Shown piece after piece: positions 14,682-28,329 of a DNA stretch of 34,701 nt. The notes below the pieces were generated by a model. The model made no database searches and was not told where the DNA came from. It worked only from the letters and a program-made list of their open reading frames with translations. The position numbers and the translations under genes were made by a program. Position 1 is the stretch's first letter, and each line of letters begins with the position of its first letter. Location: NCBI GenBank assembly GCA_022800815.1, contig JAAWRC010000034.1, positions 1 through 34,701 on the forward strand. Direction: 5' to 3'. The DNA is from Lachnospiraceae bacterium (GTDB lineage Bacteria > Bacillota > Clostridia > Lachnospirales > Lachnospiraceae).

Positions 14682-14771
14682 GAAAGAAAATGGCTTCCTT
14701 TTTATAAAATTTTCAAAAAAGCGCCCGGCGCTCTTTCATCTGCTTTGTCGAAAAGGAAGCCGTTTTCTTTC
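14682..14771. repeat. Hairpin element with 21-bp inverted ends
   Basis: Arms 14682-14702 and 14751-14771 (GAAAGAAAAYGGCTTCCTTTT) pair over 21 bp with one G-U-compatible difference. An inner hairpin AGCGC-CCG-GCGCT lies at 14720-14732. It sits just after the lactonase gene and may also terminate it. The arm sequence resembles the ends of the large palindrome at 23383-23634, which suggests one family of mobile hairpin repeats. Confidence 0.55.
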
Positions 14772-14857
14772 TGATCCGGCCCGAGAAAAGGAAGGGGCCC
14801 CGGCCGGACTTATGTGGCGCAAACGACAATTCTCAGCAGCTAATCAAGTCCATGGCC
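14753..14857. repeat. 105-bp direct repeat, decayed copy of the radA 3' end
   Basis: This is identical to 15652-15756 at 99 of 105 positions with no gaps. It contains the last codons of radA in minus orientation, reading M-D-L-I-S-C-stop in place of M-D-L-I-G-R-stop, plus about 75 bases of radA downstream DNA. All six differences are G or C in the intact copy and A or T here, as expected for an unselected copy. With its partner it brackets the type III toxin-antitoxin locus. Confidence 0.9.
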
Positions 14858-14883
14858 TTTTTAGAGGATTTTTCGGTAAGTGG

Positions 14884-14912
14884 TTGACATAGAATGGCAT
14901 GGTACATATAAT
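14884..14912 (+). promoter_or_regulatory. Consensus promoter of the type III antitoxin RNA
   Basis: TTGACA (14884-14889), 17-base spacer, TATAAT (14907-14912): a perfect sigma-A-type promoter. Transcription would begin near 14919, just before the RNA repeats. Confidence 0.8.
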
Positions 14913-14918
14913 AATAGC

Positions 14919-15045
14919 ATAGGGGAACGAAAATTTCCCGTAAAATAGTGTTCGCTCCCTGATATGCGGCTTATAAATGTTCAGGACGACAAATAGTGTC
15001 CGCTCCCCGATATGCGGCTTACAAATGTTCGGGATTAAAATGTTC
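14919..15045 (+). ncRNA. Type III antitoxin RNA, CptI/ToxI-like repeats
   Basis: Two direct repeats of 48 nt (14943-14990 and 14991-15038) and the start of a third (AAATGTTCG) lie between a perfect promoter and a hairpin that precedes the toxin gene. This is the arrangement of type III antitoxin loci, where each repeat is cut out by the toxin and folds into a pseudoknot that inhibits it. Each repeat has a 5-bp stem: CCTGA/TCAGG in the first and CCCGA/TCGGG in the second. The U-A to C-G double change keeps pairing and is direct evidence of a selected RNA fold. Repeat length (48) and number (about 2.2) fit the CptIN family as I recall it. The 5' end is estimated from the promoter. Confidence 0.75.
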
Positions 15046-15075
15046 GTAGCGCTCTGCCCTTTGGCAGGGTGCTAC
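15046..15075 (+). terminator. Hairpin between antitoxin repeats and toxin gene
   Basis: GTAGCGCTCTGCC-CTTT-GGCAGGGTGCTAC folds into a 13-bp stem with two G-U pairs. In type III loci a partial terminator in this place lets antitoxin RNA outnumber toxin mRNA. It is followed by TCTCACATAG rather than a U-run, so read-through should be substantial. Confidence 0.6.
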
Positions 15076-15096
15076 TCTCACATAGGAGATTTCTTC

Positions 15097-15594
15097 ATGC
15101 TGGATGCACAGCTATATTTCCTTTCGGATCAGTATTATCAGGATTTCCCCGACGATAAGCTTATGAAAAACAAAGATGTTATAAATGGGATGCCACATAA
15201 TCGTCCCTGTTTTTTTGCGTTCGAAGACTCCAAAACAGCCGGTATTTACTGGATTGTCCCGATTTCATCAAGATATGAGAAATTCAGACGGATCGAGCAG
15301 GAGAAGATAAAAAAATACGGACGCTGCAATACTATTCGCTTTGGCGTCGTCCTTGGCAGAAATACGGCGTTTTTGATCCAGAATATGTGTCCTGCAACGG
15401 CCAAATATCTGACGGCATACATAGACAAAAACAAATGCCCCGTTCGAATTGATGGCCGAGTGGCTTCTGACGTGGAGAAAAATGCCCGAGGTGTCTTGGC
15501 TATGGCAAAACGTGGAGCAAAGGTTATTTTTCCGGATGTGTTTAAAATCTACCACGGACTGGAGCAGCAACTTCGGCAGGATATCCTGCCTTAA
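15097..15594 (+). CDS. Type III toxin-antitoxin toxin, CptN/ToxN-like endoribonuclease
   Basis: This 165-residue basic protein starts MLDAQLYFLSDQYYQDFPDD, with AGGAG eight bases before the ATG. The early 'RPCFFAFEDSKTAGIYWIVPISS' block (a short-substrate beta-barrel strand with P-I-S) and the later K-rich region match the size and style of type III toxins. ToxN-family proteins are endoribonucleases of about 150-175 residues that cut mRNA and their own repeat RNA. Identification rests mainly on context: perfect promoter, tandem 48-nt repeats with a covarying stem, intervening hairpin, then this gene. Subfamily CptIN, known from gut Clostridia, is the best fit. GC content is lower than the neighbours, and the locus is bracketed by 105-bp repeats, so it was probably acquired. 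Confidence 0.72.
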   Translation: MLDAQLYFLSDQYYQDFPDDKLMKNKDVINGMPHNRPCFFAFEDSKTAGIYWIVPISSRYEKFRRIEQEKIKKYGRCNTIRFGVVLGRNTAFLIQNMCPATAKYLTAYIDKNKCPVRIDGRVASDVEKNARGVLAMAKRGAKVIFPDVFKIYHGLEQQLRQDILP

Positions 15595-15651
15595 ATGCAA
15601 CAGTCTCCGATCCGTTCATTTTCCCGCCCCAATCCAGAAAAAATCTTTAAT

Positions 15652-15756
15652 AAGGAAGCCGTTTTCTTTCTGATCCGGCCCGGGAAAAGGAAGGGGCCCC
15701 GGCCGGGCTTATGTGGCGCAAACGACAATTCTCAGCGGCCGATCAGGTCCATGGCC
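15652..15756. repeat. 105-bp direct repeat, intact radA 3' end copy
   Basis: Second copy of the repeat at 14753-14857, 899 bases further on. This copy is continuous with radA (stop codon at 15732-15734). It also carries one arm (GAAAGAAAACGGCTTCC, minus strand) of the hairpin element at 14682-14771. Confidence 0.9.
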
Positions 15757-17147
15757 TCCCCCACGTTTTTCACGCCGACGAGCCGGATGCCCCGGGGCGG
15801 GTCGGCGATGCGGGAAAGGCATACCTGCGGCAGGACGCAGATGGTATATCCCAGCTTGGCCGCCTCCTGAACCCGCTTTTCCGCCATGCTCACGGCCCGC
15901 ACCTCACCGGAAAGCCCCACCTCGCCGAACACCATCATCCGGTCGTCCACCGGGGTGTCCCGGTGGCTGGAGGCCAGGGCCAGGACGATCCCCAGGTCCA
16001 GGGAGGGCTCGTTGACCCGGATGCCTCCGGCGATGTTCACATAGACGTCGCAGTCGGAAAGATGTATCCCCGCCCGTTTTTCCATCACTGCAAGGAGAAG
16101 GTTCACCCGGTTGTAATCGGTTCCCGCCGCCGTCCTTCTCGGCATGCCGAAGTTGGTCCGGCACACCAGGGCCTGGATCTCCAGGAGCACCGGCCTGGTT
16201 CCCTCCATGGAGCAGGCCGTCACCGAGCCGGAGGCCCCCTCCGGCTTTCCGCTCAGCATGTATTCGGAGGGGTTCGCCACCTCGGAAAGGCCGTTCCCCC
16301 GCATCTCAAAGACGCCGATCTCGTTGGTGGAACCGAACCGGTTTTTGACTCCCCGAAGGATCCGGTAGGGCACGTTCCGCTCCCCCTCGAAATAGAGCAC
16401 CGTGTCCACCATGTGCTCCAGCATGCGGGGGCCGGCCATGGTCCCCTCCTTGGTCACGTGCCCCACGAGAAAAATCGTGATGTTATGTTCTTTTGCAAGG
16501 CGGAGCAGGATCTGGGTCGACTCTCTCACCTGTCCCACGCTTCCCGGCGCACTTCCCGCATCCTCCCGGTACATGGTCTGGATGGAGTCGATGACCACCG
16601 TCTCCGGCTTCTCCCCGACGATCACCTCGGAAATCAAATCCAGGCCGGTCTCGCACAGGAAAGTCAGTTCTCCGGAAAACTCCCCCAGACGGTCCGCCCG
16701 GAGTTTGATCTGGCTCAGGGATTCTTCCCCGGAGATATAGAGCACCCGGTGACCGTCCCCGGACAGGTTCCGGCAGACCTGGAGGAGCAGGGTCGATTTC
16801 CCGATACCGGGATCGCCTCCCACCAGCACCAGGGAGCCGCTCACCAGGCCGCCCCCAAGCACCCGGTCAAGCTCCTCCATCCCGGTGGAAGTCCGCTCCT
16901 CGCAGGAGGTCTCGATCTCCGACAGTTTTTTGGGACGCAGCCCGCCAGACGCCGGAAACCGTCCGGAGACCGCACCGCCTCCCAGGACGCCCGCACTTTT
17001 AAACCGCCCGCCGGACGTCCCGGCTTTCTGAGCGGGAGCCTCCACAAACGTATTCCACTCACGGCATCCCGGACACTGTCCCATCCACTTGGCCGACTCG
17101 TAGCCGCACTCCTTACAGAAAAACATCGTCGCCTTCGCTTTCGCCAT
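15732..17147 (-). CDS. radA: DNA repair protein RadA
   Basis: This 471-residue RecA-related DnaB-type helicase processes recombination intermediates by extending D-loops. Domains: an N-terminal C4 zinc finger CKECGYESAKWMGQCPGC (residues 8-25), a RecA-like core with Walker A GGDPGIGKSTLLLQ near 105, the RadA-specific KNRFGSTNE motif near 255, and a C-terminal Lon-protease-like domain without catalytic function (VNIAGGIRVNEPSLDLG). GGAGG five bases before the ATG at 17147 favours that start over the ATG at 17159. In many Firmicutes radA directly follows clpC. Here vsr, a broken methyltransferase and a small gene lie between them. Its 3' end is duplicated upstream of the type III toxin-antitoxin locus. 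Confidence 0.97.
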   Translation of the reverse strand: MAKAKATMFFCKECGYESAKWMGQCPGCREWNTFVEAPAQKAGTSGGRFKSAGVLGGGAVSGRFPASGGLRPKKLSEIETSCEERTSTGMEELDRVLGGGLVSGSLVLVGGDPGIGKSTLLLQVCRNLSGDGHRVLYISGEESLSQIKLRADRLGEFSGELTFLCETGLDLISEVIVGEKPETVVIDSIQTMYREDAGSAPGSVGQVRESTQILLRLAKEHNITIFLVGHVTKEGTMAGPRMLEHMVDTVLYFEGERNVPYRILRGVKNRFGSTNEIGVFEMRGNGLSEVANPSEYMLSGKPEGASGSVTACSMEGTRPVLLEIQALVCRTNFGMPRRTAAGTDYNRVNLLLAVMEKRAGIHLSDCDVYVNIAGGIRVNEPSLDLGIVLALASSHRDTPVDDRMMVFGEVGLSGEVRAVSMAEKRVQEAAKLGYTICVLPQVCLSRIADPPRGIRLVGVKNVGEAMDLIGR

Positions 17148-17164
17148 CTTCGCCTCCATACGAT

Positions 17165-17632: not shown

Positions 17633-17965
17633 CGCTTAATCCTCCTGGTTCGTTCAATGAAATTTTGCCACGGGCATTTTCGCTTTGCGAAATTCTTTCT
17701 GGTTGTCCTTATTATAGTATAGAATCCGAGTTTTTTCCAGATGTTCCGGCAAAAAATTCATTCCCCGAACACATTTTTTAAAAAACCGGGCACGTCGAAC
17801 TTTTCTTTTCTGGCATGTCCTGACACCAGCCTCCTCCAACAGCCCATTCTGTCGGCAAGCCCCCCGCCATTCACTTCCAGGTCGCCCTGGCCCCCCGCCG
17901 AAAACGGGTCCCGCATGGAGGACGACACCACTCCGTGGTTTGCCACCAGCCAGAGAGTGAACCGT
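17633..17965 (-). other. Non-coding stretch with possible gene debris
   Basis: This covers 333 bases between the small protein gene and the end of the broken methyltransferase. A -10-like TATAAT (minus strand, 17711-17716) probably serves the gene starting at 17632; its -35 is weak. A minus-strand open frame of 78 codons (17758-17994) overlaps the methyltransferase end, but it has no ribosome site and no recognisable similarity. It may be scrambled remains of the deleted methyltransferase region. Confidence 0.4.
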
Positions 17966-18292
17966 TCATTTGACCAGGTCGACAATGCTGTCAAGATGAT
18001 ATTCCTTCACCGGAGCGCCGCGCTTCCCGAAATAGTTCGTCCATGCGGCCTTCGCCTCTGGTTTGATGTCGTTGGCGAATATCGCATGAAACCTCGTCTT
18101 CCCCAGCCGCACCCAGTCGTCGTCGACCCTGTCCATGCTCCAGTCACCGTTGACCTGCGGATTCACGGATCTCTCAAGCACGCGGAAATCGCCCTCAAAG
18201 CCCAGGTCGATTCCGCCGCACCCGGAAAAAAGCGATATCAAGCTCAGCGTTTTATCTGTCAAAATAGATCCCTTCATGTCCGTCACCGTCAT
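17966..18292 (-). pseudogene. Truncated DNA (cytosine-5)-methyltransferase
   Basis: The 108 residues contain motif I of C5 methyltransferases, LISLFSGCGGIDLGFEG (SAM-binding FxGxG), and the following FANDIKPEAKAAWTNYF region (motif II). The frame stops right after HLDSIVDLVK, before the motif IV Pro-Cys catalytic loop and the target-recognition domain. A full enzyme would be over 300 residues, so it cannot methylate. It starts 15 bases after vsr on the same strand. Vsr repairs T:G mismatches from deamination of methylcytosine, and the pair is a common unit. The missing part is not found elsewhere in the window. Confidence 0.85.
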
Positions 18293-18307
18293 AGTCTCTT
18301 CCGCATT

Positions 18308-18754
18308 TCAATACAGCTCCATGTAATCGTTCATTTTGTTGTCAAAAATCGTCTCCTCCACCACCCGCACGCATTGTTTCGGATTTTTCAATATGTCATT
18401 CCCCCAAAAGCGGATGATCGTCCACCCCAGGAACAACAGCTTTTTGTCATTTTCCCGATCCCGCTCCATGTTTCTCTCGATCTTTTTCACCCAAAAATCC
18501 GCATTGTTTCCTTTCAGCAGCCTGGGTCTCAAAACCTCCCAGTCCTTTCCATGGAATAATTCACCGTCACAGAATATCGCTATCTTATATTTGGTCAGGA
18601 CAATGTCCGGCGTGCCCGGCAAGCCTTTATAGTTTTTCCTGTACCGATATCCCTGCCGCCACAGCTCCCTGCGAAGCGCCAGCTCAATACTGGTATCCTT
18701 GCTCCTGATGCGGCTCATGGCCCTGTGCCTTTGTTCCTTGTTCAATACGTCCAC
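18308..18754 (-). CDS. vsr: Very short patch repair endonuclease
   Basis: This 148-residue protein carries the Vsr core: N-terminal RHRAMSRIRSKDTSIELALR (DNA-binding, ends in the conserved S-K-x-T), then PGTPDIVLTKYKIAIF with the catalytic Asp at 50, and GELFHGKDW with His 68. The E. coli Phe-Trp-His wedge reads Leu-Phe-His here. Vsr nicks 5' of the T in T:G mismatches left by deaminated 5-methylcytosine. The start is GTG at 18754, with a weak G-run upstream. It lies 38 bases after clpC on the same strand, without a visible promoter, and may be read from the clpC operon. Its methyltransferase partner is broken, so it is now probably an orphan. Confidence 0.92.
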   Translation of the reverse strand: MDVLNKEQRHRAMSRIRSKDTSIELALRRELWRQGYRYRKNYKGLPGTPDIVLTKYKIAIFCDGELFHGKDWEVLRPRLLKGNNADFWVKKIERNMERDRENDKKLLFLGWTIIRFWGNDILKNPKQCVRVVEETIFDNKMNDYMELY

Positions 18755-18792
18755 GGTACGTTATCCCCCCCACGGCGTCGCCTCTTCCTCTG

Positions 18793-27932: not shown

Positions 27933-27983
27933 CAGGGACGCAAATTTTTACACTTTCACCCTTGTAAGCCAAGGATCTTTAAG

Positions 27984-28329
27984 TGGACCTGAGGGGAATC
28001 GAACCCCTGTCCGAAAGCCCTTCCATTCAGGTTTCTCCCATCACAGTCTTTTCTTTTTGATTCCCCCGTGAGAACGCCAAAAGACAGGCTTCCCCACTCG
28101 GTAGCTTCATCATTCTTCCACCTCCGCAAAGCTTAGAAGGCGAAGTTCCTCGCATCGTCGATGCCGGGATCCTAAGCTGCGAGAGACCTAGGGCCGACAG
28201 CTGCAATTAAGCAGCGTACGCTAACTGTTCGTCTGCGTTTATATTTAGGTTTTCCATGTTGGTGACGCAGCCACGGTCTGCGGATGGCTTCCCAAACTTC
28301 TGAACCCCCGTCGAAACCAGTACAAGCCC
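27984..28329 (-). ncRNA. ssrA: Transfer-messenger RNA (tmRNA)
   Basis: The 5' part on the minus strand reads GGGCTTGTACTGGTTTCGAC, the conserved tmRNA start. The 3' part ends with the T-arm CAGGGGTTCGATTCCCCT and the acceptor CAGGTCC-A. The acceptor stem GGGCUUG/CAGGUCC pairs at all seven positions, two as G-U. The tag reading frame ends N-A-D-E-Q-L-A-Y-A-A-stop, a good ClpXP/ClpAP-type degron (YAA). The 3' CCA is not encoded (A is followed by CTT) and must be added by nucleotidyltransferase. tmRNA with SmpB frees stalled ribosomes. Length about 346. The true 5' base may be 28330. Confidence 0.95.

Follow-up and report, generated by a model that had tools for sequence, protein, structure and literature searches.

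What kind of element occupies positions 14884–15594 of the 34,701-nucleotide stretch of Lachnospiraceae DNA analysed here (the window), and how did it come to lie beside a radA-like gene? The initial annotation had read the locus as a type III toxin–antitoxin system, best matching CptIN. That call was sound: the observation is confirmed and the interpretation supported, with sequence profile, fold and RNA structure in agreement. In kind, the locus is ordinary, a further member of the CptIN family of type III systems, whose original classification is reportedly that of Blower in 2012. A chromosomal type III module, inserted beside radA, with its antitoxin RNA presumably processed and held in complex with its toxin, is the explanation that we regard as almost certain. 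What our analysis adds is a leader hairpin and an insertion signature, both of which we infer from comparison.

Locus architecture and the CptN toxin

All elements of the module lie on the plus strand. A promoter scan found a sigma-70-type promoter (14884–14912), in which TTGACA (14884–14889) and TATAAT (14907–14912) are separated by 17 nt and match the consensus at 12/12 positions; it had been called perfect, and it is. The left limit of homology among related modules falls near this promoter. Beyond a 5′ leader hairpin of the antitoxin transcript (14920–14942) lie two CptI repeats, previously given as 48 nt each; both are present, with lengths of 48 nt (14943–14990) and 47 nt (14991–15037). 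The partial third repeat noted earlier, AAATGTTCG, begins at 15038 and runs to 15046; AAAT follows the last unit in relatives as well, and a third processing site is presumed here. Between antitoxin and toxin, folding recovers the 13-bp hairpin of the initial annotation at 15046–15075, the 13 bp counting two G–U pairs. The cptN toxin gene (15097–15594) encodes 165 aa. Read upstream, its frame has no stop as far as 14977, for a mechanical ORF of 205 aa, but because AGGAG (15084–15088) precedes the ATG at 15097, that ATG was taken as the start, which agrees with the 165-residue gene and ribosome site originally described.

The encoded protein is a CptN toxin with a predicted ToxN/Kid-like RNase fold. 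It matches the NCBIfam CptIN equivalog NF047359 at 191.4 bits against a cut-off of 90 (E = 7.2e-57), and phmmer against the PDB returned CptN from E. rectale (4rmo) at E = 1.2e-22, the five remaining matches having E values of 0.4 or worse. An AlphaFold model built with 19 aligned sequences (pLDDT 88.8, pTM 0.85) allowed the comparison with ToxN/CptN folds that had been proposed as a check: Foldseek placed 4rmo top (TM 0.80/0.85), followed by MazF and CcdB proteins, in agreement with the resemblance of CptN to the Kid toxin described in the available text of the E. rectale study (PMC4627078). With a score of 191 bits against 90, the toxin is not hard to recognise, contrary to what had been expected. 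The related expectation, that such a gene would often be annotated only as hypothetical, held in part: five relatives on plasmids all carry the label ‘hypothetical protein’, and neither PADLOC 2023 nor any Pfam model, ToxN (PF13958) included, matches the window toxin, but the NCBIfam model recognises it.

Serines S57 and S58 are invariant in the 19 aligned proteins and present in 4rmo, where they correspond to both serines of the Ser-Ser-Arg triad of E. rectale CptN. Candidates for the arginine are R59, which follows the serine pair and is replaced by Lys, Gln or Asn in many relatives, and R36, which is invariant. Asp81 of E. rectale CptN has no counterpart in the window toxin, for which the alignments show a gap or Leu, and its Ser85 aligns with Thr90 (counted by hand on the alignments). 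Since the available text on E. rectale CptN has these two residues specifying adenine at the cut, and neither is kept here, the cleavage specificity of the window toxin may differ.

Could the window hold a decayed copy, devoid of toxin–antitoxin function? Apparently decayed relatives exist: the cptN genes of L036 and L052 align as two pieces, that of L037 has an internal gap and that of L095 contains stops. In the window, however, ORF and hairpin are intact, the promoter is perfect and both pseudoknots are able to pair, and we give decay almost no credence.

Antitoxin pseudoknots and flanking hairpins

The two window repeats are 91% identical across 44 nt. Both confirm the double change in stem S2 reported earlier, CCTGA/TCAGG versus CCCGA/TCGGG (14958–14962/14981–14985 in repeat 1 and 15006–15010/15029–15033 in repeat 2). 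A second stem, S1, which the initial annotation had missed, lies at 14952–14955/14966–14969 and 15000–15003/15014–15017 and takes the forms TCGC/GCGG and CCGC/GCGG. From this one pair of repeats it had been argued that the RNA fold is under selection, a view upheld by comparison of 73 distinct units in 86 loci.

Our alignment held 87 units (2 from the window and 85 from other loci; 73 distinct), drawn from 86 loci including the window. In the pseudoknot arrangement 94.5% of cells were paired, against at most 40.7% with the partner slid by 1–3 columns, a comparison that favours the chosen structure because it was picked by eye from the same sequences. Two-sided change was found in 9/10 pairs, and shuffles reached the CptI values in 0/500 cases on four of five measures and in 18/500 on the number of pair types. 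Columns 9 and 29, the outermost S1 pair, are paired in 36/70 sequences; the window’s type lacks this pair. Because paired cells, two-sided changes and shuffles agree across relatives, the window antitoxin RNA is, on comparative sequence evidence, a CptI H-type pseudoknot. Folding of the repeat unit, suggested at the outset as a check on this structure, gave a divided answer: single-unit MFE folds, from a program that predicts no pseudoknots, contained none and did not improve on shuffles (z 0.11 and 0.16), whereas covariation across relatives supports the fold. Rfam returned nothing of note at the locus, two sub-threshold matches to the hairpin being taken as chance.

At least one repeat unit was found in 90 of the 95 loci searched, L079 being omitted as its contig begins inside the gene; L009, which has only 89 bases upstream of the toxin, L086, L091, L095 and L096 had none. 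Among plus-strand loci with at least two units, 83/84 had exactly two and L066 had three, and AAAT occurred within 12 nt after the last unit in 79/84 loci. Two observations stand apart. In L034 (5787–5933), the starts of the two units are ~105 nt apart and a hairpin-like stretch separates the units, whereas other arrays are contiguous. The toxin of L053 is 52% identical to that of the window, yet its antitoxin repeats are 90% identical at the DNA level, hinting at an exchange of antitoxin and toxin halves or at slow repeat evolution.

On its own, the window’s leader hairpin is modest (−7.1 kcal/mol, z −1.8). Across relatives, a stem of 5 bp or longer closing a 3–8-nt loop directly before repeat 1 was present in 64/72 distinct leaders (78 loci), compared with a mean of 15.4 and a maximum of 27 in 300 rounds of shuffling, and with 19/73 for a control stretch 75 bases further upstream. 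As the leaders average just 35% ungapped identity, this hairpin appears to be kept in structure and not in sequence. A limited literature search found no earlier mention of it, which is weak evidence of absence. A role in the stability or first cut of the CptI precursor is conceivable, but we suggest it with some hesitation. As for the hairpin between antitoxin and toxin, the 46-nt stretch containing it folds at −24.3 kcal/mol (z −5.7 versus shuffles). The hairpin has no clear T-run and was not listed by the terminator scan; the printed folds of relatives’ loci also show a hairpin before the toxin, with L081 a clear exception. The window hairpin is a putative attenuator.

In the working that we propose, a single promoter would drive one transcript containing the 5′ hairpin, two pseudoknots, the attenuating hairpin and the toxin message. 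Three AAAU sites, the putative cutting sites, bracket the two pseudoknots; CptN, as an endoribonuclease of ToxN/Kid fold, would cut the precursor at these A-rich junctions. The two released pseudoknots would then hold CptN, presumably as a 2:2 complex, and three such junctions around two pseudoknots would fit the heterotetramer of E. rectale CptIN. If the locus were lost, or fresh RNA no longer made, the presumably toxic CptN would be freed, which would make the module addictive and maintained. The initial annotation had added that such systems can abort phage infection. For CptIN this finds no support in the available text on the E. rectale module, which stabilised a plasmid and made no difference against >200 coliphages in E. 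coli (PMC4627078), an outcome that fits a selfish, maintained module better than proven phage defence. Phage defence by the window module is possible.

A 106-bp direct repeat beside radA

The module is flanked by a direct repeat of 106 bp (left copy 14753–14858, right copy 15652–15757; no strand assigned), with 6 differences between the copies (94% identity). The right copy covers the 3′ end of an intact gene on the minus strand (15732–17159) together with the region downstream of that gene, which we take from its sequence to be radA, a name that fits its domains. The left copy is a relic comprising 26 nt of the radA coding end and the downstream region. No further copy was found in the genome. 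Among genomes of the same genus the nearest is G004, which is colinear, has no sequence corresponding to 14730–15697 and shows no CptN match; of the 106 bp it holds 60, in one copy, without ~70 bp next to the junction, so that the ancestral state is shown for 60 bp of the repeat only. Over these 60 nt there are 5 differences between the two copies; compared with G004, the left copy has 4 and the right copy 3. As the left copy retains two G004 states lost from the right copy, the site differences fit duplication in place, although 60 nt make a weak test. The CptIN module thus appears to have entered beside radA with a 106-bp duplication at the junction, by a presumptive insertion mechanism.

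The same arrangement could have arisen if a donor with CptIN beside radA supplied the module by a single crossover or homologous import, the repeat being a recombination scar with one native and one imported copy. Identity to G004 is indeed mosaic along the window, at 0.97 to 1.00 (mostly >0.99) over 9.9–13.4 kb, 0.94–0.96 over 13.4–14.65 kb, 0.91–0.95 over 15.65–16.4 kb and mostly 0.81–0.93 from 16.4 to 23.1 kb, a pattern of divergence that probably reflects recombination; moreover, the 80 aligned intergenic bases left of the module are only 0.85 identical. Yet the coding identities on the left (0.94–0.96) and right (0.91–0.95) are alike, so no sharp import breakpoint is visible at the module, and the differences between the repeat copies match duplication in situ, on 60 nt only. 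Furthermore, 9/10 other same-genus genomes have no CptN match, and the distant match in G006 lies on a contig other than that of its radA. Import therefore strikes us as unlikely, if still credible. A distinctly improbable alternative is that the module is what erosion has left of a larger site-specific island that occupied the 3′ end of radA. The att sites of many islands duplicate a gene 3′ end, as is seen here, but there is no integrase between the two repeat copies and, where repeats are seen across loci, the module alone is the usual unit. Insertion of the module with duplication at the junction is the reading that we prefer.

The G006 locus (L093) is a distant CptIN whose repeats are of the E. 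rectale type, with 35–38% toxin identity; the genus therefore took up at least two different CptIN lineages. Two other ideas were dropped. For an insertion hotspot beside radA, in two same-genus species (L100 and L101) the lactonase gene and radA are separated by other genes, and no such gene is seen in L105 and L106. For a cassette-integron origin of the window arrangement, attC was sought in the right copies at 14 flanking-repeat loci; no paired motifs were found, and a lone GTTRRRY motif occurred in L055.

Elsewhere in the window, a second segment absent from G004 (17759–18791) lies 2 kb from the CptIN module, with no flanking repeat found. It contains a Vsr-type endonuclease gene (18308–18754) and a short N-terminal fragment (17966–18292) whose cytosine-methylase match is weak, and is perhaps a decayed restriction–modification remnant. 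At the left end (11–866), neighbouring genes encode a PIN_3-domain protein and one whose ThsB TIR-like match is weak; these may be defence or toxin genes. A tmRNA gene with the tag ADEQLAYAA lies on the minus strand at 27981–28329.

Bracketing across CptIN loci and known systems

The window cptN is the only copy found in its own assembly. Among 391 sampled genomes of the class Clostridia, CptIN was found in 15, the window’s included (12 over the cut-off), and ToxN in 36 (35 over the cut-off). Five plasmid records carry CptN relatives at <60% identity, and no record in the phage collection matched CptN. For comparison of loci we kept 80 of 105 encoding a relative in bacterial genome contigs, together with 7 in contigs labelled viral (label as given) and 8 of 61 relative genomes, the window’s own included. 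Relative to the toxin start, the 37 homologous loci compared match the window at the DNA level only from about −232 to +486 (in L007 and L009 the upstream sequence runs out). Eight near-identical, non-Veillonella module pairs (86–96%; L003/L006, L008/L018, L010/L013, L011/L013, L016/L018, L017/L026, L021/L022 and L021/L032) lose homology at −210 to −226 and +484 to +555. Five pairs have longer common flanks (L010/L011, L022/L032, L023/L089, L040/L043 and L056/L074), and homology stops sooner in pairs where a copy is broken or limited by its contig. Because homology stops at the module edges, which relatives in unrelated contexts place ~210–230 bp before the toxin start and ~485–555 bp after it, the CptIN module appears commonly to travel alone.

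Is bracketing by direct repeats general? In a wide search of 84 non-Veillonella loci (repeats of at least 38 nt and at least 80% identity, up to 5.5 kb on each side, less at contig ends), 10 were bracketed at 752–1284 bp spacing, and just 5 repeat pairs, in 4 loci, had a larger spacing of 1.6–9.0 kb. Within the tight range (500-bp flanks), bracketing repeats were found at 13/96 CptIN loci (10/84 plus 3/12 from the class-wide sample) versus 2/234 control genes from the same loci, under the same length and identity cut-offs (p = 3.5e-6). The 96 include two duplicates (L089 = L023 and L123 = L046, L123 being one of the 12 from the class-wide sample), neither bracketed, without which the count is 13/94. 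Six Veillonella loci, L009, L079, L095, L096 and the short-flanked L007 and L084 were left out of the main counts, and L136–L138, unplaceable by tblastn, were omitted from the class sample. A 296-nt repeat in L125, at a spacing of 1803, falls outside the tight set. With a looser cut-off, 16/89 CptIN loci were bracketed versus 14/513 control positions when Veillonella was included, 8 of those 14 being from Veillonella, and 11/83 versus 4/234 when it was excluded (p = 1.2e-4). ToxN loci, examined as a contrast, had a bracketing repeat in 1/27 testable cases (30 fetched), at a spacing of 1843, and the difference from the 13/96 CptIN loci was non-significant (p = 0.07 for 0/27 in the tight range; p = 0.30 for 1/27).

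At least four of the 13 bracketed loci are multi-copy elements: the L129 and L134 repeats, as found when seeking empty sites, are pieces of multi-copy sequence dispersed in their own genomes, and those of L071 and L091 occur >2 times locally. Clean two-copy cases genome-wide are the window, L013 (64 nt, identical) and the full-length L061 repeat, in which the last 38 nt of a gene and a terminator-like hairpin are duplicated, the terminator half alone recurring in 6 other places. The L020, L069 and L048 repeats are two-copy within the fetched locus, and in L021 and L076 there are two direct copies, which contain internal palindromes. A second empty site was sought among relatives of L013, where the best of 397 genomes, at only 71%, was too far. 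In Veillonella (L055, L057, L058, L060 and L070), CptIN lies within arrays of ~200-nt highly structured repeats, several hundred bases apart, with few ORFs between them in L057. The multi-copy repeats, these arrays and the ToxN contrast all speak against a pattern general to the family.

These comparisons lead us to a tentative proposal, which we hold with less than even confidence: CptIN modules would be mobile without a transposase and duplicate their target, and the CptI 5′ hairpin would be kept in structure rather than sequence. With the same reserve, the mobile unit might run from promoter to toxin only (~0.75 to 1.2 kb). The duplicated target, again tentatively, might span ~40–140 bp and, in the clearest cases, consist of the 3′ end of a gene together with the terminator, the neighbour being left intact. 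For a single site, the window locus gives before-and-after states of a stand-alone addiction module entering a chromosome. The spread of transposase-less modules could be studied on a cargo of 0.8 kb and, if the proposal is true, the insertion mechanism becomes testable on very small cargo.

Among known systems, the closest is E. rectale CptIN (4rmo), which, as far as the available text describes it (PMC4627078), shares with the window the toxin family, predicted fold, two repeats, S1/S2 H-type pseudoknot and serine pair. The window toxin has 165 aa versus 155 in E. rectale, with 31% identity in the structure alignment, and its repeat units are 47–48 nt versus 45. L092 and L094 have repeats like the E. 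rectale sequence, and toxins 37% and 34% identical to that of the window. ToxIN has the same genetic plan, a pseudoknot antitoxin and the RNase fold predicted for the window toxin but, according to the accessible parts of two reports, differs in its ToxI repeats of 34–36 nt, present in 2.8–5.5 copies, and in forming a heterohexamer (PMC5086642, PMC4627078). The bracketing itself resembles what has been called ‘insertion with long target duplication’ in restriction–modification systems, some of which, in the available text of a 2013 review citing Nobusato 2000 and Furuta 2010 (PMC3874152), insert with long, variable target duplications of ~100 bp. Similarly, the window holds an addiction module without a transposase, flanked by a duplication of ~100 bp and absent from a relative; unlike those cases, it is a type III toxin–antitoxin module and not a restriction–modification system. 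If the tentative proposal is true, insertion with long target duplication would extend from restriction–modification genes to RNA-antitoxin modules.
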